From positions 1-12,665 of the forward strand of contig WQXW01000021.1 in the NCBI GenBank assembly GCA_009781575.1: 12,665 bases of DNA, in the 5' to 3' direction. Origin of the DNA: Solirubrobacterales bacterium. Its GTDB lineage: Bacteria > Actinomycetota > Thermoleophilia > Solirubrobacterales > Solirubrobacteraceae. The notes beneath the pieces are model-generated. The model was not told where the DNA came from. It searched no databases and saw nothing but the letters and a program-made list of their open reading frames with translations. Numbering within the stretch: position 1 is the first letter of the stretch; every line of letters begins with the position of its first letter. A program made the position numbers and the translations under genes. This document shows positions 3,917 to 12,589 of this stretch, one piece after another.

Positions 3917-4114
3917 CAAAAAACCTTCCTCCGGGAACCTTCAGTCTGGGTGGTAGGCGCTATTTACCCGATCTTCACATTTCGGTAGCAACCGCCCCCT
4001 AGAACCCACGTGAACGCTCGTGGTTGCGGTTGCGGGTGCAATGATGTTGAGGATGGTCGACCTGGCGTACGAGCGGCCCGGGCCACCCGGCGGGGGCCGG
4101 TGGGGAGGACGGGC

Positions 4115-5035
4115 ATGAGCGAGGACTGGCCGGCGGTGGACTACGCGGGGTGGCGGGACACGTGCGACACGGTGCACGCGCACACGCAGGTGCTGGGCAA
4201 GCTGGCGGCGGCGCTGGCGGCGCCGGAGCCCCAGTTGCAGCACGCGGCGCTGCGCGTGACGGCGCGCGGGTGGGAGACGGCGGCGCTGCCGGCGCCGGAC
4301 GGCTCGGGCGCGCTGGTGGTGGGGCTGGACCTGCGCGCGCACGAGGCGTTCGTGGAGCACAGCGACGGCCGCGGGAGGCGGCTGGCGCTGACGCCGCACC
4401 GCGCGGTGGGCGAGGTGACGAGCGAGCTGCTGAGCGACGTGGGCTCGCTGGTGGGGGCGGTGCAGATCAACCCCACCCCGCAGGAGGTGTGGTGGAGCGA
4501 GCCGCTGACGGAGGATCGCAGGCACGACACCTACGACCCGGAGGCGGTGGAGGCGTACCACGGGGCGGCCACGCGCGCGGCGCTGGCGCTGGCGGCGTTC
4601 CGCGCGCCCTACCGCGGGCGCGCGACCCCGGTGAACGCGTGGTGGGGCTCGTTCGACCTGGCGGTGAACCTCTTCTCGGGACGGCCGGCGGAGCCGCCGT
4701 CGGAGGACTTCATCATGCGCAACGCGATGGACGCGCAGGAGGTGGCGGTGGGCTGGTGGCCGGGCGACCCGCGCTACGAAAAGGCGGCGTTCTACGTGTA
4801 CGCGCACCCGGCGCCGGAGGGGTTCGCGGAGGTGGAGCTGGCGCCGGCGGCGGCGCGCTGGGAGGGCGAGCTGGGCGAGTTCGTGCTCGACTGGGAGGAC
4901 GTGCGCGCGAGCCCCGACCCGCAGGGAGCGGTGCTGGAGTTCGCGCGCTCGGGCTTCCGCCACTCGTGCGTGGTGGCGGATTGGGACCCGGCGCTGTCGG
5001 CGAGCGCGGAAGCGTGGCCGCCGCCGGTGCGCTGA
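4115..5035 (+). CDS. DUF5996 family protein
   Basis: A cytoplasmic protein of unknown function, 306 residues. It follows the DUF5996 plan by recognition: N-terminal WPAVDYAGWRDTCDTVHAHT with QVLGK, then ALRVTARGWETAALP near 45-59, THDTYDP-like RHDTYDPEAVEAYHG near 137-150, the signature WWGSFDLAVNLFSGRP at 176-191, GWWPGDPRYEKAAFYVYAHP near 213-232 and GELGEFVLDWEDVR near 251-264. It has no signal peptide or membrane segment. The frame is open from 4010, but the ATG at 4115 has GGAGG seven bases upstream and starts exactly at the conserved region, so I use it. It stands alone: the previous gene is divergent and the ATPase follows after about 150 bases with its own promoter signals. No catalytic residues are established for the family. 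Confidence 0.85.
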   Translation: MSEDWPAVDYAGWRDTCDTVHAHTQVLGKLAAALAAPEPQLQHAALRVTARGWETAALPAPDGSGALVVGLDLRAHEAFVEHSDGRGRRLALTPHRAVGEVTSELLSDVGSLVGAVQINPTPQEVWWSEPLTEDRRHDTYDPEAVEAYHGAATRAALALAAFRAPYRGRATPVNAWWGSFDLAVNLFSGRPAEPPSEDFIMRNAMDAQEVAVGWWPGDPRYEKAAFYVYAHPAPEGFAEVELAPAAARWEGELGEFVLDWEDVRASPDPQGAVLEFARSGFRHSCVVADWDPALSASAEAWPPPVR

Positions 5036-5139
5036 GCGCGCGCGCGGACGGGCGCGCGGCGGACGGGCGCAAGCGCCAGGCGAGGAGAGCGGCCGAGCGC
5101 GACGGATGAGCGCGCGCGGACGTCCAGCGCAGAGCCCGA

Positions 5140-5158
5140 GGTGATATAACTCCTCACC
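5140..5158 (+). promoter_or_regulatory. Operator-like inverted repeat with embedded -10, copy 1
   Basis: GGTGA (5140-5144) and TCACC (5154-5158) form an inverted repeat with a 9-base spacer. The spacer begins with TATAAC (5145-5150), a good -10 hexamer. The same 19-base layout recurs at 5186-5204 ahead of the ATPase gene. The local sequence is much richer in A+T than its surroundings. A regulator bound here would occlude RNA polymerase. Role inferred. Confidence 0.5.
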
Positions 5159-5175
5159 ACCAGGGGTCATAAACC

Positions 5176-5191
5176 ATCACCAAACGGTGAT
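5176..5191 (+). promoter_or_regulatory. Inverted repeat ATCACC-aaac-GGTGAT
   Basis: A perfect 6-base inverted repeat with a 4-base centre. It shares its right arm with the second 19-base operator, so the half-site GGTGAT/ATCACC occurs in alternating orientation three times between 5176 and 5204. It may be an extra binding arrangement for the same dimeric regulator or a hairpin at the mRNA start. Function inferred. Confidence 0.4.
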
Positions 5192-5204
5192 ACGATACAT
5201 CACC
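5186..5204 (+). promoter_or_regulatory. Operator-like inverted repeat with embedded -10, copy 2
   Basis: GGTGA (5186-5190) and TCACC (5200-5204) flank a 9-base spacer beginning with TACGAT (5191-5196), which fits the actinobacterial TANNNT -10. The repeat ends immediately before TTG 5205, the preferred ATPase start, so a transcript from this -10 would be leaderless or nearly so. The layout is identical to copy 1, 46 bases upstream. I see no good -35. Confidence 0.5.
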
Positions 5205-6311
5205 TTGGCCAGCCCATTCGTCTACGAGGAGCCCGTCGCGGCCGAGGCGCTGGCGGACCGCGACTCAGAGCTCGGCTTGCTGACCGATCGTGCGCTGGAC
5301 AGCCGCAACAGCCGTGTTGAGGGCGCGCGAAGGTATGGCAAGACCTCGCTGCTGCGGGCGGTGCTCACCACGGTGGAGAGGGCCGGCGCGATCCCCATCG
5401 AGGTGGGCTTCCTGGGATGCGTGAGCGCTGCGGACGTGGCGGAGCGCATCGAGCGCGCCTACCGCGCTCAGCTCAACACGAGGCTGCAGCGCTGGTTCGA
5501 TGGGCTGGTGCGCACGCTGAACCCCACGATCAGCGCCGCGCCGGGCGGGGTTGGACTGTCGTCGCAACCGCGGTTGAACGCTCCAGGACTGCTGGACCGC
5601 CTCGCCCTGCCGCGCCGCGTCCACGAACGCACGGGCCGCCTCTGCGTGGTGGCCTTCGACGAGTTCCAGGAGGTGGTGCGAATCGACGCCGCGCTGCCGG
5701 GTGTGTTCCGCTCGGAGCTCGAGAGTCACGGCAAGGCGGCGGCGTATGTCTTCTCGGGCTCGCATCCCGGGCTCGTGAGGGAGCTGTTCAGCGACCGGCG
5801 CCACGCGTTCTTTGCCCAGGCCGCGCCGATCACGCTCGGCCCGCTGCCGCCCGACGAGCTGGCGGAGTACATCGTGGAGCGGTTCCGCGCGGGTATGCGT
5901 GACCCGGGCGAGGCGCTGGGCCCGCTGCTGGACACGGCGGAAGGACATGCCCAGCGCGCGATGCTGCTGGCGCACCATCTGTACGAGCGAGTGGGGGCCG
6001 GCGAGAGCGGCGACATCGAGAGCTGGGTCGACACCCTCCAAGCCGCTCGCCTGGAGGCGCAGAGCGAGATCCAGATCCTGTGGGATTCCTGCACCTCGCT
6101 CGAGCGCAGGACACTCAAGGTGATCGCGCAGCGCACCGTCGCGCTCGGCGGGAGGGAGGCAGGCACGCGCTATGGGCTGCCCAAGGGAGGCTCCACCCGC
6201 GAGACCGTGGAGCGGCTCTTCGCGGGCGGGCATCTCGTCGAGGACAGCTCCAGACGTACGGGCTGGAGAATTGTCGATCCTCTGCTCGCGTGCTGGCTGC
6301 GCGAGGGGTGA
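5205..6311 (+). CDS. AAA/STAND-type ATP-binding protein (COG1672-like)
   Basis: P-loop ATPase of the archaeal-type ATPase group, 368 residues; substrate unknown. Walker A is G40-ARRY-GKT(47) in VEGARRYGKTSLL, Walker B is LCVVAFDEFQEV with D152 and E153, and the sensor-like strand is YVFSGSHPGLVREL near 181-195. LGPLPPDELAEYI and a helical lid follow. Residues about 295-365 look like a winged helix, from SLERRTLKVIAQ to WRIVDPLLACWL. No signal peptide or membrane segment is seen. The frame is open from GTG 5187, but that GTG lies inside the 19-base inverted repeat and has no Shine-Dalgarno. TTG 5205 starts at MASPFVYEEPV, where homologues usually begin, so I prefer it. Family members are often single genes linked to stress, mobile elements or toxin-like roles. 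The upstream twin operators suggest tight control, perhaps by its own C-terminal winged helix. Length is full and no key residue is missing. Confidence 0.85.
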   Translation: MASPFVYEEPVAAEALADRDSELGLLTDRALDSRNSRVEGARRYGKTSLLRAVLTTVERAGAIPIEVGFLGCVSAADVAERIERAYRAQLNTRLQRWFDGLVRTLNPTISAAPGGVGLSSQPRLNAPGLLDRLALPRRVHERTGRLCVVAFDEFQEVVRIDAALPGVFRSELESHGKAAAYVFSGSHPGLVRELFSDRRHAFFAQAAPITLGPLPPDELAEYIVERFRAGMRDPGEALGPLLDTAEGHAQRAMLLAHHLYERVGAGESGDIESWVDTLQAARLEAQSEIQILWDSCTSLERRTLKVIAQRTVALGGREAGTRYGLPKGGSTRETVERLFAGGHLVEDSSRRTGWRIVDPLLACWLREG

Positions 6312-6368: not shown

Positions 6369-6445
6369 AACACGCCTGTCGCAGGCGCCGTTGGTGGATT
6401 CAAAAAGAGAATTCGTTCCGCGCGGAACGAATCCAAAAAAACAAA
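6369..6445. repeat. Dispersed palindromic repeat, copy 1
   Basis: This 77-base segment aligns without gaps to 11173-11249, with about 13 mismatches in the first 72 positions by eye. Its core is a perfect 22-base palindrome at 6411-6432 centred on CCGCGCGG, followed by an A-rich stretch (CCAAAAAAACAAAG). The left part holds CCTGTC and CCGTTGG, shared by both copies. The A run follows the hairpin on the forward strand, so it is not a standard terminator in that direction. It lies 57 bases after the ATPase stop. It could be a REP- or MITE-like element or a protein-binding dyad. Confidence 0.75.
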
Positions 6446-6866: not shown

Positions 6867-6924
6867 AGCTGGACCGGCACCGCCGGAGCGGGCGCCTGCC
6901 CCCGGGCGGGGCGATTGCCCCGGT

Positions 6925-6990
6925 GTCGTACGGGTGGAGGCCCAGGGGGAGATCCGGGTCCCGTGGGATTCCTGCGCCTCGCTCGAGCGC
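6925..6990 (+). pseudogene. Fragment of an ATPase gene related to the one at 5205
   Basis: Over 66 bases this matches 6042-6107 inside the ATPase gene, 54 of 66 positions by my count. The reading frame is kept: EIRVPWDSCASLER here against EIQILWDSCTSLER there, 14 of 22 residues identical over the full stretch. Most changes at codon level fit divergence under coding constraint rather than a recent tandem copy. Similarity stops on both sides, and the fragment ends four bases before the stop codon of the reverse-strand winged-helix gene. I read it as the remnant of a second family member once present here. Confidence 0.5.
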
Positions 6991-9525: not shown

Positions 9526-9966
9526 ATGATCCCAGAGTTCGATGAGCACGGCAACCTCCCGCCGGGCATTCACCACGCCACTTGGAACGAGATCGTGACT
9601 CGCTACGCGACCAGCACTCACCGACGAGATCGGCTTGACGGGGTTCTCGACGCGCTGCGCTCGCTGAAGGCTGCCGGTTGCGCCACCGTCTACCTGGACG
9701 GCAGCTTCGTCACGAGTAAGGACCATCCCGACGACTTCGACGCCTGCTGGGAGTCGGCCGGTGTTGTTCCCAGTCGGCTCGACCCCGAGTTGCGGGAGTT
9801 CAGCGATGAGCGCGCCGCCCAGAAGGCTCGGTACGGCGGCGAGATCTTCCCCGCCCAATGGTCAGCACATCCCGATGGCACAACGTTTCTTGACTACTTT
9901 CAATACGACAACGCGACCAACCGGCCGAAGGGCATCGTCGCGGTCGACCTGGCGAGACTCCCGTGA
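9526..9966 (+). CDS. DUF6932-like minimal nucleotidyltransferase
   Basis: A 146-residue protein with the polymerase-beta-type nucleotidyltransferase signature: YLDGSFVTSKDHPDDFDACW holds Gly59-Ser60, a 9-residue gap, then Asp70-Phe-Asp72. Asp141 in GIVAVDLARLP could be the third carboxylate. The N-terminus IPEFDEHGNLPPGIHHATWN and the phrase AAQKARYGGEIFPAQW are features I recognise from DUF6932 proteins. It could transfer a nucleotide to RNA, protein or a small molecule; the target is unknown. The stop overlaps the XRE gene start by 4 bases (GTGA), so the two are cotranslated. Small NTases paired with a DNA-binding partner are often toxins, for example in MNT-HEPN and AbiE systems, and that is my inference here. 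No Shine-Dalgarno precedes ATG 9526; the promoter appears leaderless. All motif residues are intact. Confidence 0.75.
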   Translation: MIPEFDEHGNLPPGIHHATWNEIVTRYATSTHRRDRLDGVLDALRSLKAAGCATVYLDGSFVTSKDHPDDFDACWESAGVVPSRLDPELREFSDERAAQKARYGGEIFPAQWSAHPDGTTFLDYFQYDNATNRPKGIVAVDLARLP

Positions 9967-10412
9967 TCACCAATCAGCGCGAATATCGCATCACGAAGAG
10001 TTGGATGGCCCGCTTCGAGAAGGAGCTGATCGCCAACGAGACACGCGAGCTCGGGCCCCGCGAAGACCCGGGCATGAGGAAGGTGGTGCACGACGCGATC
10101 GCCAGCCAGATCGAGACGTTGCGTCACGAAATCGACCATTACGAGAGGCTGCGCGACGGACACATCACCAGCCGTGAGCTGACGTCTCTGCACGAGCTGC
10201 CAACCGCCCTGATCGAAGCCCGCATCGCGGCCAGGCTCACCCATCGCCAGCTCGCCGACCGAGTTGGCGTCGCCGAACAGCAGGTTCAGCGTTGGGAGGC
10301 CAACAAGTACAGCGGCGTCGGGCTCGACCGGCTACAGAGCATCGCCGACGCACTCGGCGTGCGGATCCGCGAGACGATCACGTACACCAGCGCGGCGTTG
10401 GAAGTCGGCTAG
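9963..10412 (+). CDS. XRE-family regulator, likely antitoxin partner
   Basis: A 149-residue protein with an N-terminal helical region (about residues 12-65, with IETLRHEIDHYERLRDG as a probable coiled coil) and a C-terminal XRE/Cro-type helix-turn-helix at 82-134: ALIEARIAARLTHRQLADRV, GVAEQQVQRWEAN and LDRLQSIADALGV. The N-terminal EYRITKSWMARFEKEL resembles many antitoxin-like XRE proteins. Its GTG start overlaps the DUF6932 stop in GTGA, which implies translational coupling and fixed stoichiometry. It is probably the repressor of its own operon, binding the palindrome before ATG 9526, and may neutralise the nucleotidyltransferase. The order, effector first and DNA-binder second, is like HigBA. 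The stop shares CTAG 10409-10412 with the convergent gene. Confidence 0.82.
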   Translation: MITNQREYRITKSWMARFEKELIANETRELGPREDPGMRKVVHDAIASQIETLRHEIDHYERLRDGHITSRELTSLHELPTALIEARIAARLTHRQLADRVGVAEQQVQRWEANKYSGVGLDRLQSIADALGVRIRETITYTSAALEVG

Positions 10413-11172: not shown

Positions 11173-11249
11173 AACACACCTGTCTGAGGCTCCGTTGGGG
11201 GAATTGTTTTGAGGATTCGTTCCGCGCGGAACGAATCCAAAAAACAAAA
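11173..11249. repeat. Dispersed palindromic repeat, copy 2
   Basis: Ungapped match to 6369-6445. Here the core is a perfect 26-base palindrome at 11213-11238 centred on CCGCGCGG, followed by AAAAAACAAAACACG. GTTTTG just before the core can pair with CAAAAC after it, extending the stem with bulges. In the part that differs most from copy 1, a T run replaces an A run while the palindrome arms are kept. This favours selection on the dyad over simple drift. Confidence 0.75.
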
Positions 11250-11382: not shown

Positions 11383-11901
11383 ATGAGAACCCTGCTGCCC
11401 GACCCGGCACCGGCCGAGGTGCAGGCACTGCTCGAGCGCCGCAGACGCCTCGGCCAGGATCGCAAAGACGAGGTGTGGGAGGGGGTGTACCACGTGGTTC
11501 CGGCGCCCTCCCACAGACATGCGGCGGCGGGCGCGCAGGTGAAGCGGCTGCTCGCCCCGCCTGCCGCCGTGGCGGGGCTGGTTGTGACTGACGAGTTCAA
11601 CCTCGGCAACTCCCAGCACGACTTTCGCGTGCCCGACGGCGGCCTTCACCGCCCCGGCGCCGCCGAAATGTGGCACCCGACCGCCGCGTTGGTCGTGGAG
11701 ATCGTCTCGCCCGACGAGGAGCCCTGGGAGAAGCTTCCGTTCTATGCGACCCACGAGGTGGACGAGATCGTGATCGTCGATCCCGATCGACGCAGCGTGA
11801 AGTGGATTGCGCTGAAAGATGGCGAATATCGGCCGATCGAGCGAAGCGGTCTGATCGAGCTGGGGCCGGCTGCGCTCGAGCAGATGATCGACTGGCCGTA
11901 G
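11383..11901 (+). CDS. Uma2 family (DUF820) PD-(D/E)XK protein
   Basis: A 172-residue member of the Uma2/DUF820 family with a restriction-endonuclease fold. The N-terminal segment RKDEVWEGVYHVVPAPSHRH (27-46) matches the usual entry strand and helix. The active-site residues are intact: Asp85 in FRVPDGGLHRP, Glu106 in ALVVEIVSPDEEPWEKLPFY and Lys117 in the same stretch. EVDEIVIVDPDRRSVKWIAL follows, as is usual. Family members are presumed nucleases of unknown role, abundant in cyanobacteria and actinobacteria and often present as many solitary paralogues. It is a single gene here, with no methylase or antitoxin beside it. The ATG at 11383 follows a -10-like hexamer with no ribosome binding site. 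Full length. Confidence 0.88.
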   Translation: MRTLLPDPAPAEVQALLERRRRLGQDRKDEVWEGVYHVVPAPSHRHAAAGAQVKRLLAPPAAVAGLVVTDEFNLGNSQHDFRVPDGGLHRPGAAEMWHPTAALVVEIVSPDEEPWEKLPFYATHEVDEIVIVDPDRRSVKWIALKDGEYRPIERSGLIELGPAALEQMIDWP

Positions 11902-11951: not shown

Positions 11952-12047
11952 GGACCACCCCGCCGGCGTAGGGCAGCGGGTCGGGTGGATGCAGCGGTGG
12001 GGCAGGTTGTTACGATGCGGTGAACTTCTGTTGCGCGCCACCGGGGC

Positions 12048-12076
12048 TTGCCTCAGGGTCGAGCATGCTGCATACT
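12048..12076 (+). promoter_or_regulatory. Candidate promoter for the winged-helix gene
   Basis: TTGCCT (12048-12053) and CATACT (12071-12076) are separated by 17 bases, each matching the sigma-70 consensus at four of six positions. It lies about 40 bases upstream of GTG 12116, leaving space for the Shine-Dalgarno GGGAGAGG at 12105-12112. Confidence 0.35.
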
Positions 12077-12115
12077 GCGTGGCGGCCCGAGGAAGGGAGA
12101 GCCGAGGGAGAGGCC

Positions 12116-12589
12116 GTGAGTGCGCCCGTAGCAGAACAGGTACGCAGCACCCTGGAAGCACGCCTGCGCGAGCTCGAGCCCGCGGCGGCGGAGTTTGAGC
12201 AGCTGCGCAGGGTGTTGGCTGCATTCGATGACCCCCCGCGCTTCGGGGCGGCGGTGCGGACAACGGCGGCGACGCACGCGCCCGACACGGCCGGCGACGG
12301 CGGGAGCGCGAGCGTGACCACGCTGCCGGTCACCGTGCGCCGGGGCAGCAAACGGGGCCGCGACGGCCGCGCGCCGCAGGGAGCGAACAAGCAGCGCATC
12401 CTCGCGGTGATCGCCGAGCACCCCGGGATCGCGCCCTCCCAGGTCGCGGCGTTGACCGGCCTGAGACGCCCGCTGGTGGCGTCGACGATCAGCCGTTTGA
12501 AGCGCGCGGGCGAGCTGCAGGACCACGGCGACGGCGTCAGCCTGCCGGCCGGGCGCGCGCCGCTCGCGGCCCTGCCGGCCAGCCCCTGA
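12116..12589 (+). CDS. Coiled coil plus winged-helix regulator-like protein
   Basis: A predicted DNA-binding protein of 157 residues. Residues 5-37 (QVRSTLEARLRELEPAAAEF, then EQLRRVLAAFD) form an amphipathic coiled coil. A flexible Thr/Gly/Arg-rich linker runs to about 90 (RRGSKRGRDGRAPQGANKQR). A winged helix occupies 92-142: QRILAVIAEHPGIAPSQVAA, LTGLRRPLVASTISRLKRAG. The fold suggests MarR-like DNA binding, with dimerisation through the coil. Target unknown. The frame is open from 12020, but GTG 12116 follows a GGGAGAGG tract and begins where family members usually do; ATG 12065 is an alternative. The proposed relic at 6455-6630 shares the coil and linker plan. No operon partner is visible downstream in the window. 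Confidence 0.68.
   Translation: MSAPVAEQVRSTLEARLRELEPAAAEFEQLRRVLAAFDDPPRFGAAVRTTAATHAPDTAGDGGSASVTTLPVTVRRGSKRGRDGRAPQGANKQRILAVIAEHPGIAPSQVAALTGLRRPLVASTISRLKRAGELQDHGDGVSLPAGRAPLAALPASP

Follow-up and report, generated by a model that had tools for sequence, protein, structure and literature searches.

A tandem palindromic array abutting the start codon of an Orc1-like AAA+ ATPase gene is probably the gene's own operator

Directly ahead of an AAA+ ATPase gene in a 12,665-nucleotide stretch of a Solirubrobacterales genome (contig WQXW01000021.1, assembly GCA_009781575.1; the whole stretch is called the window), three palindromic units in a 23-bp register fill the 65 bases from 5140 to 5204 and end at the TTG codon at 5205. 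Many relatives of this gene keep the layout while the letters change; in two genomes the intact array is confined to the promoter of its own gene; and residue 333 of the protein co-evolves with base 7 of the half-site. Taken together with the predicted fold of the protein, this makes it probable that the array is the gene's own operator, bound by the winged helix of the ATPase and likely repressing its own transcription. It should be noted that the promoter which these operator-like sites appear to overlap is itself predicted, and that the match between the DNA-binding domain of the gene product and the sites is drawn at the level of the family and from a modelled structure.

A first-pass annotation of the sequence had described two 19-bp units of the form GGTGA-N9-TCACC, 46 bases apart. 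Both are exact and have no further match in the window, and two matches were reached in 0 of 200 shuffles (mean 0.03). That two-unit layout is real and incomplete, since a third, half-decayed unit had been overlooked. The middle unit, GGGGTCATAAACCATCACC, has a decayed left arm, keeps its right half-site and lies in exact 23-bp register, which makes three units repeating every 23 bp. The order in the window is GGTGATATAACTCCTCACC, 4 bases, GGGGTCATAAACCATCACC, 4 bases, GGTGATACGATACATCACC and then TTG, with five of the six half-sites recognisable, and when this upstream stretch was shuffled 300 times with its dinucleotides preserved, no shuffle scored as high as the array. As read from the sequence, the half-sites alternate in orientation with their centres 12 and 11 bp apart, approximately one per helical turn. 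The inverted pair ATCACC-AAAC-GGTGAT, which had been proposed to link the two units, is present at 5176-5191 and is the sole exact match in the window's genome assembly (73% complete, 2.25 Mb), where 11 more places match with one mismatch. The bare pattern GGTGA-N9-TCACC is not rare genome-wide, with 16 places in the assembly versus 2 for the reversed control pattern.

To describe the arrangement across the family, homologue loci were drawn from an initial set plus 60 added regions, which are part of all the matches found; proteins shorter than 300 residues were excluded, and the 174 upstream regions were reduced to 167 by dropping genes below 60 bits and short, N-bearing or near-duplicate upstreams. 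In 114 actinomycetotal upstreams, 5-mer repeats at lag 23 number 279 versus 13.4 expected from dinucleotide shuffles, and the same upstreams show an excess of inverted pairs with spans of 14 to 19. Per gene, the lag-23 count is 2.45 before the ATPases versus 0.19 before 325 other open reading frames (ORFs) of the same loci, and random segments of these loci gave a mean lag-23 total of 28 and a maximum of 100 in 20 draws. A model of two or three palindromes (span 18-20, period 22-24) fits 86 of 113 genes versus 1.1% of 452 shuffles, the remaining 27 falling below the array threshold. In 53 upstreams from other phyla the repeats fall instead at lag 14 (181 versus 11.5 expected; 3.42 per gene before ATPases versus 0.64 before other ORFs of the same loci). 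Tandem arrays of 14-bp period were seen before homologues L093, L091, L078, L095, L074, L052 and L055, from Bacteroidota, Omnitrophica, Desulfobacterota and archaea, and represent the same arrangement in another geometry. When each gene is classified singly, 52 of 163 have a period of 22-24 bp, 36 a period of 14-15 bp and 75 neither. The observation is confirmed, and what had been noted at a single promoter characterises a large part of the ATPase family.

The half-sites themselves vary widely and include GGTGATA (window), GGTGCTA, GGTACGG, TGCTCTA, GGTTCAG and GGTATGC, among others. The expectation that the letters GGTGA-N9-TCACC would recur ahead of homologues failed: of the 30 loci L011-L040, none but L011, which is the locus of the window itself, carries them. 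Exact-letter conservation was for this reason dropped as a test in favour of layout statistics; it would wrongly refute the idea, because the layout is kept while the letters change with the protein. Half-site similarity tracks protein similarity (Mantel r 0.23, 0 of 2000 permutations), shared bases falling from 5.2 of 7 in pairs with at least 70% identity to 3.1 of 7, the chance level, at 35-40%.

The gene encodes 368 residues with Walker A (ARRYGKTS) and Walker B (VAFDEFQ) motifs, and R42, G45, K46, D152 and E153 of these motifs are invariant in 94 sequences. Its product matches the SSO1545-type AAA+ ATPase fold over its full length and has the AAA+ plus winged-helix fold found in Orc1/Cdc6 initiators. 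The first-pass annotation had labelled the family COG1672; a Pfam scan gave AAA_16 as the sole match, below its cut-off; NCBIfam gave no match; and among four relatives scanned, L136 passes PF01637 (ATPase_2) with 34.5 versus 33.2 bits. The family profile over residues 298-351, within the predicted winged helix, weakly matches the operon repressor AdcR (E 0.005).

The evidence connecting this domain to the array comes from covariation. Genes below 30% identity had been dropped from an earlier half-site set, which kept 85 genes, 70 of them with an array. Arg or Lys at residue 333, in the predicted recognition helix, occurs with C at half-site base 7 in 19 of 22 genes versus 7 of 63 for other residues (Fisher 1.7e-10), and in 7 of 10 versus 1 of 29 when one gene per 60%-identity cluster is used. 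In a phylogeny-aware, Pagel-type scan, with a tree built without the winged helix and null models refitted from several starts for 24 and then all 101 columns, the likelihood-ratio test (LRT) of correlated evolution for residue 333 and base 7 is 29.6, the next column reaching 8.3. Permutation that takes phylogeny into account, run at two strengths on 68 genes, also puts column 333 at the top of 359 columns. Among 77 genes beyond the array set, some of them already used in the per-gene period analysis, at least three GCGT/ACGC upstream accompany Arg333 in 8 of 16 versus 5 of 61 with other residues. Further pairings were chosen after the fact: Tyr/Gln333 with A6 (12 of 13 versus 6 of 72, LRT 30.7), Lys/Arg327 with G2 (64 of 66 versus 6 of 20, LRT 23.5), Tyr/His/Asp/Gly/Gln333 with G7 (LRT 12.7) and Val/Ile/Thr333 with A7 (LRT 8.8).

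Several observations weigh against this reading. Scans without control for relatedness (68 and 70 genes) do not favour residue 333, and a close-pair test run at three cut-offs never has it among the 20 columns listed, while listing K327, G328, T331 and A319 of the winged-helix domain at one or more of them; the rule relating residue 333 to base 7 was worded after that list. On 40 and 35 cluster representatives the top rank goes to K327 with base 2, at or just under the global 95% null, and not to 333. We read the scans that do not favour 333 as confounded by relatedness or underpowered, and yet they count against it. The window protein has Glu at 333, so that its own residue-base pair is no test of the rule. 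Finally, the close relatives L041 and L113 fail the automatic array criterion though palindromes are visible in both. As a separate observation, A201, F203, R251 and A252 stand high in covariation scans without phylogeny control; the AAA+ part could hold a further contact with DNA at these positions, or the signal could reflect relatedness only.

Since the letters of the array follow a residue in the predicted DNA-reading helix of the ATPase, we predict that the array is bound by the ATPase; the suggestion made at first pass, that its own C-terminal winged helix is the reader, now appears likely from the covariation of residue 333 and the predicted fold. A separate host regulator that binds the array and controls the ATPase gene is a quite improbable alternative. 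Palindromic operators are typical of helix-turn-helix (HTH) and MarR-like regulators, the window encodes other HTH proteins (HTH_3 at 9963-10409, MarR-like at 12020-12586), and the sites of same-genome paralogues are slightly more alike than cross-genome pairs. Paralogues in one genome nevertheless carry different arrays: genome G567 has five of them, and no two share a half-site. In genomes G165 and G419, the core of the array tested there (28 bp, 15 specified bases) has a mismatch-free copy nowhere but at the ATPase promoter, and matches with 2 or 3 mismatches elsewhere in these genomes are no commoner than those of a reversed control; uniqueness was tested for this one array type in two genomes, and for the window core in its incomplete assembly. 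No regulator gene is conserved beside the ATPase in the flanks examined, and the half-site letters follow a residue within the ATPase itself.

The position of the array relative to the predicted promoter suggests what binding would do. The TTG at 5205-5207, which follows the unit ending at 5204 as the first-pass annotation had it, is preferred over the GTG at 5187 given in the mechanical ORF list, because full-length aligned close relatives begin there. Their aligned starts coincide with it (TTG in L041; ATG in L108, L110, L111 and L114; GTG in L109 and L113), and more distant relatives start at most four codons away. Promoter motifs were scanned in the 76 of 86 array genes with an assignable start, 10 being left out. 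TANNNT falls at -22 to -13 in 52 of the 76 and the extended form TG-N-TANNNT in 35, this bin leaving out the TANNNT at -12 of 20 genes; each of the other seven ten-base bins holds the extended form in 0 to 5 genes. The hexamer lies wholly within a unit (observed, or next in register) in 44 of the 52. With the -10 concentrated just before the start, transcripts are predicted to begin at the start codon or a few bases before it. In the window, TGATACGAT is the predicted extended -10 and would place the transcript start approximately 7 nt downstream, near 5203-5205, giving a leaderless transcript. Shine-Dalgarno-like motifs, found in 2 of 76 homologues, are nearly absent, which together with the start-proximal extended -10 fits leaderless transcription. 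A sigma-70 -35/-10 scan of 4900-5400 gave no match.

Of the earlier proposal that two promoters lie buried in operators, the operator over a likely leaderless promoter stands and the second promoter does not. Both -10-like hexamers, TATAAC and TACGAT (5191-5196), are where they had been placed. Where the upstream TATAAC would lie, -10 motifs are not concentrated in the family (bin -62 to -53: TANNNT in 8 of 76 and the extended form in none; bin -72 to -63: the extended form in 1 of 76), and a second promoter is for that reason not supported.

The same geometry bears on two other explanations. For the idea that the repeats act as RNA hairpins in a 5' leader speaks that every unit is self-complementary; the predicted promoter position, however, would put the units upstream of the transcript start or ending at it, an Rfam scan of the window matched no family, and the covariation with the recognition helix indicates reading of DNA, all of which makes hairpins very unlikely indeed. 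Activation, in which the ATPase binds the array and switches on its own gene as regulators of the signal transduction ATPases with numerous domains (STAND) type do at their targets, is improbable. The predicted -10 lies under the unit nearest the start codon, which that unit also abuts, and such a position blocks polymerase rather than recruiting it. The precedent for activation is IniR, an AAA+ regulator compared with SSO1545, which is described as binding and activating the iniBAC promoter (PMC5760070).

Under autorepression, which we prefer, ATPase protomers would bind the array through the predicted C-terminal winged helix, one per half-site, and the spacing of one half-site every 11-12 bp would line them up along a single face of the helix, where they would form a cooperative oligomer. 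Bound protomers would cover the -10 of the predicted leaderless promoter and the start codon and lower transcription of the ATPase gene, and ATP or a ligand would act as the switch. Table 1 gives the features concerned.

Table 1. Coordinates of the array, the predicted promoter and the ATPase gene in the window, and of tRNA genes at a related locus (L041)
Feature	Position	Strand	Basis
Array unit 1, GGTGATATAACTCCTCACC, perfect 5-bp arms	5140..5158	+	sequence, pattern match
-10-like TATAAC in unit 1; second-promoter role without family support	5145..5150	+	sequence, homologue bins
Array unit 2, GGGGTCATAAACCATCACC, degenerate left arm, intact right half-site	5163..5181	+	23-bp register
Array unit 3, GGTGATACGATACATCACC, 6-bp arms, abuts start codon	5186..5204	+	sequence, pattern match
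Predicted extended -10, TGATACGAT (TG-N-TANNNT), inside unit 3	5188..5196	+	sequence; position favoured in homologues
AAA+ ATPase gene, 368 residues, TTG start	5205..6311	+	translation, aligned starts
ATPase residues ~198-205 and 250-252, with columns high in covariation scans without phylogeny control	5796-5819, 5952-5960		
Predicted C-terminal winged helix, residues 298-356	6096..6272	+	AlphaFold model, mean pLDDT 93.5; translation
Predicted recognition helix, residues 329-340	6189..6224	+	AlphaFold model, translation
Residue 333 (Glu in window protein), codon in predicted recognition helix	6201..6203	+	translation; covariation
tRNA genes around the L041 ATPase gene	772-855, 2073-2156, 2314-2389	opposite to ATPase gene	

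The ATPase has a patchy distribution: at the level of the order it occurs in 87 of 232 genomes, at that of the class in 102 of 399 and at that of the phylum in 35 of 396, and a scan of genome contigs found relatives in other phyla and in archaea. A search of 50,697 phage records at E 1e-5 gave no relative, viral contigs scanned with two patterns gave none that was confirmed, and only distant relatives (26% identity or less) lie on 6 of 72,556 plasmids. PADLOC anti-phage models matched the window protein with 0 families at E 0.1 and three relatives with weak matches only (best 1.7e-4). The flanks have a median length of approximately 1 kb, and 40 of 86 loci have 1 kb or more on either side; within them no neighbour family of ORFs of at least 80 residues recurs in more than 4 of 86 loci, and a partner below 80 residues would escape this search. 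The window likewise has no neighbour family in common with eight close relatives (L041, L042, L044, L109-L112 and L114). A toxin-antitoxin or other two-gene module is not supported, as no conserved adjacent partner of at least 80 residues was found. These results also bear on an iteron- or origin-like site, at which an Orc1-like ATPase would start replication or partition of a resident element with autoregulation as a side effect. The absence of conserved neighbours in the flanks examined, the lack of phage or viral relatives and the few distant plasmid ones, and the fact that most of the genes analysed have their units over the start codon and the predicted promoter all argue against it, and we regard it as just as improbable as a separate regulator. 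The self-bound operator is better supported than any of these three rivals, namely a separate regulator, an origin-like site or activation.

Other features of the window were recorded. A DUF5996 protein (4010-5035, E 4.9e-83) is encoded on the same strand directly upstream of the array, and a gene for a Uma2-type putative endonuclease lies at 11383-11901 (E 2.8e-12). At 6913-6990, a 26-residue stretch has 15 identities to ATPase residues 276-301 within a 76% DNA repeat of 6025-6107 and is likely the remnant of a second ATPase copy. The palindrome (G)ATTCGTTCCGCGCGGAACGAAT(C) followed by an A-run occurs twice (6411-6432 and 11214-11237); across the whole 2.25-Mb assembly, it is found in 213 places with at most one mismatch (control 0), and this dispersed element is possibly a common terminator or a repetitive extragenic palindromic (REP)-like element. 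In L041, the closest relative, the ATPase gene (966-2069, + strand) lies between tRNA-Leu and tRNA-Leu/tRNA-Trp.

Whether the arrangement generalises, such that a large and scattered set of stand-alone Orc1-like ATPases of bacteria and archaea each use their own winged helix to read a private tandem palindrome array at their own promoter through a simple residue-base code, the arrays diverging fast enough for paralogues within a cell to be orthogonal and each ATPase assembling as a multimer on its single site, is in our judgement evenly balanced. The proposed code would pair Arg/Lys333 with C7, Tyr/Gln333 with A6 and Lys/Arg327 with G2. If this is true, gene, sensor and target form one self-contained switch, and the many natural ATPase-array pairs offer both a test bed for changes in winged-helix specificity and a source of orthogonal self-regulating switches.

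Comparison with known systems begins with the archaeal AAA+ ATPases SSO1545 (PDB 2fna) and PABY2304 (PDB 2qen), deposited as a hypothetical protein and a Walker-type ATPase; no such DNA array is described for them in the parts of the open-licence literature covered. Structures of SSO1545-fold ATPases date from 2006-2008, and the array, its geometry and the candidate code now provide a testable DNA target and function. Archaeal Orc1/Cdc6 proteins (1w5t, 2v1u, 2qby) likewise join AAA+ to a C-terminal winged helix, and DNA-bound structures exist; in the window family, by contrast, each gene has the site over its own predicted promoter, with letters that vary from gene to gene, and an origin role is hypothetical. 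In nucleotide-binding leucine-rich repeat (NLR) and STAND immune receptors the winged helix belongs to an oligomerisation switch, whereas in the window family its recognition helix co-varies with DNA. IniR of mycobacteria, described as an AAA+ signal-transduction ATPase and DNA-binding regulator and compared with SSO1545, resembles the window ATPase in that an AAA+ ATPase acts as a DNA-binding regulator, as is predicted here; it differs in its 818 residues, its MalT-like middle domain, its LuxR-like DNA-binding domain and its activation of another operon (PMC5760070). Own-operon repression at promoter repeats, again predicted for the window family, is described for plasmid RepA, whose autorepression is specific and of which several orthogonal copies can coexist in one genome (PMC4492784), and for the AbiEi antitoxin, which autoregulates at inverted repeats (PMC7319586). 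These belong to other protein families and to multi-gene operons, whereas no conserved partner of the window ATPase gene was found. Titles and abstract beginnings of the open-licence papers found describe no such arrays. That a gene product controls its own gene at tandem palindromes is already known in kind; the new variant, if true, would be that an Orc1-fold ATPase standing alone does so at an array which is private to it, changes fast and can be read by a code.
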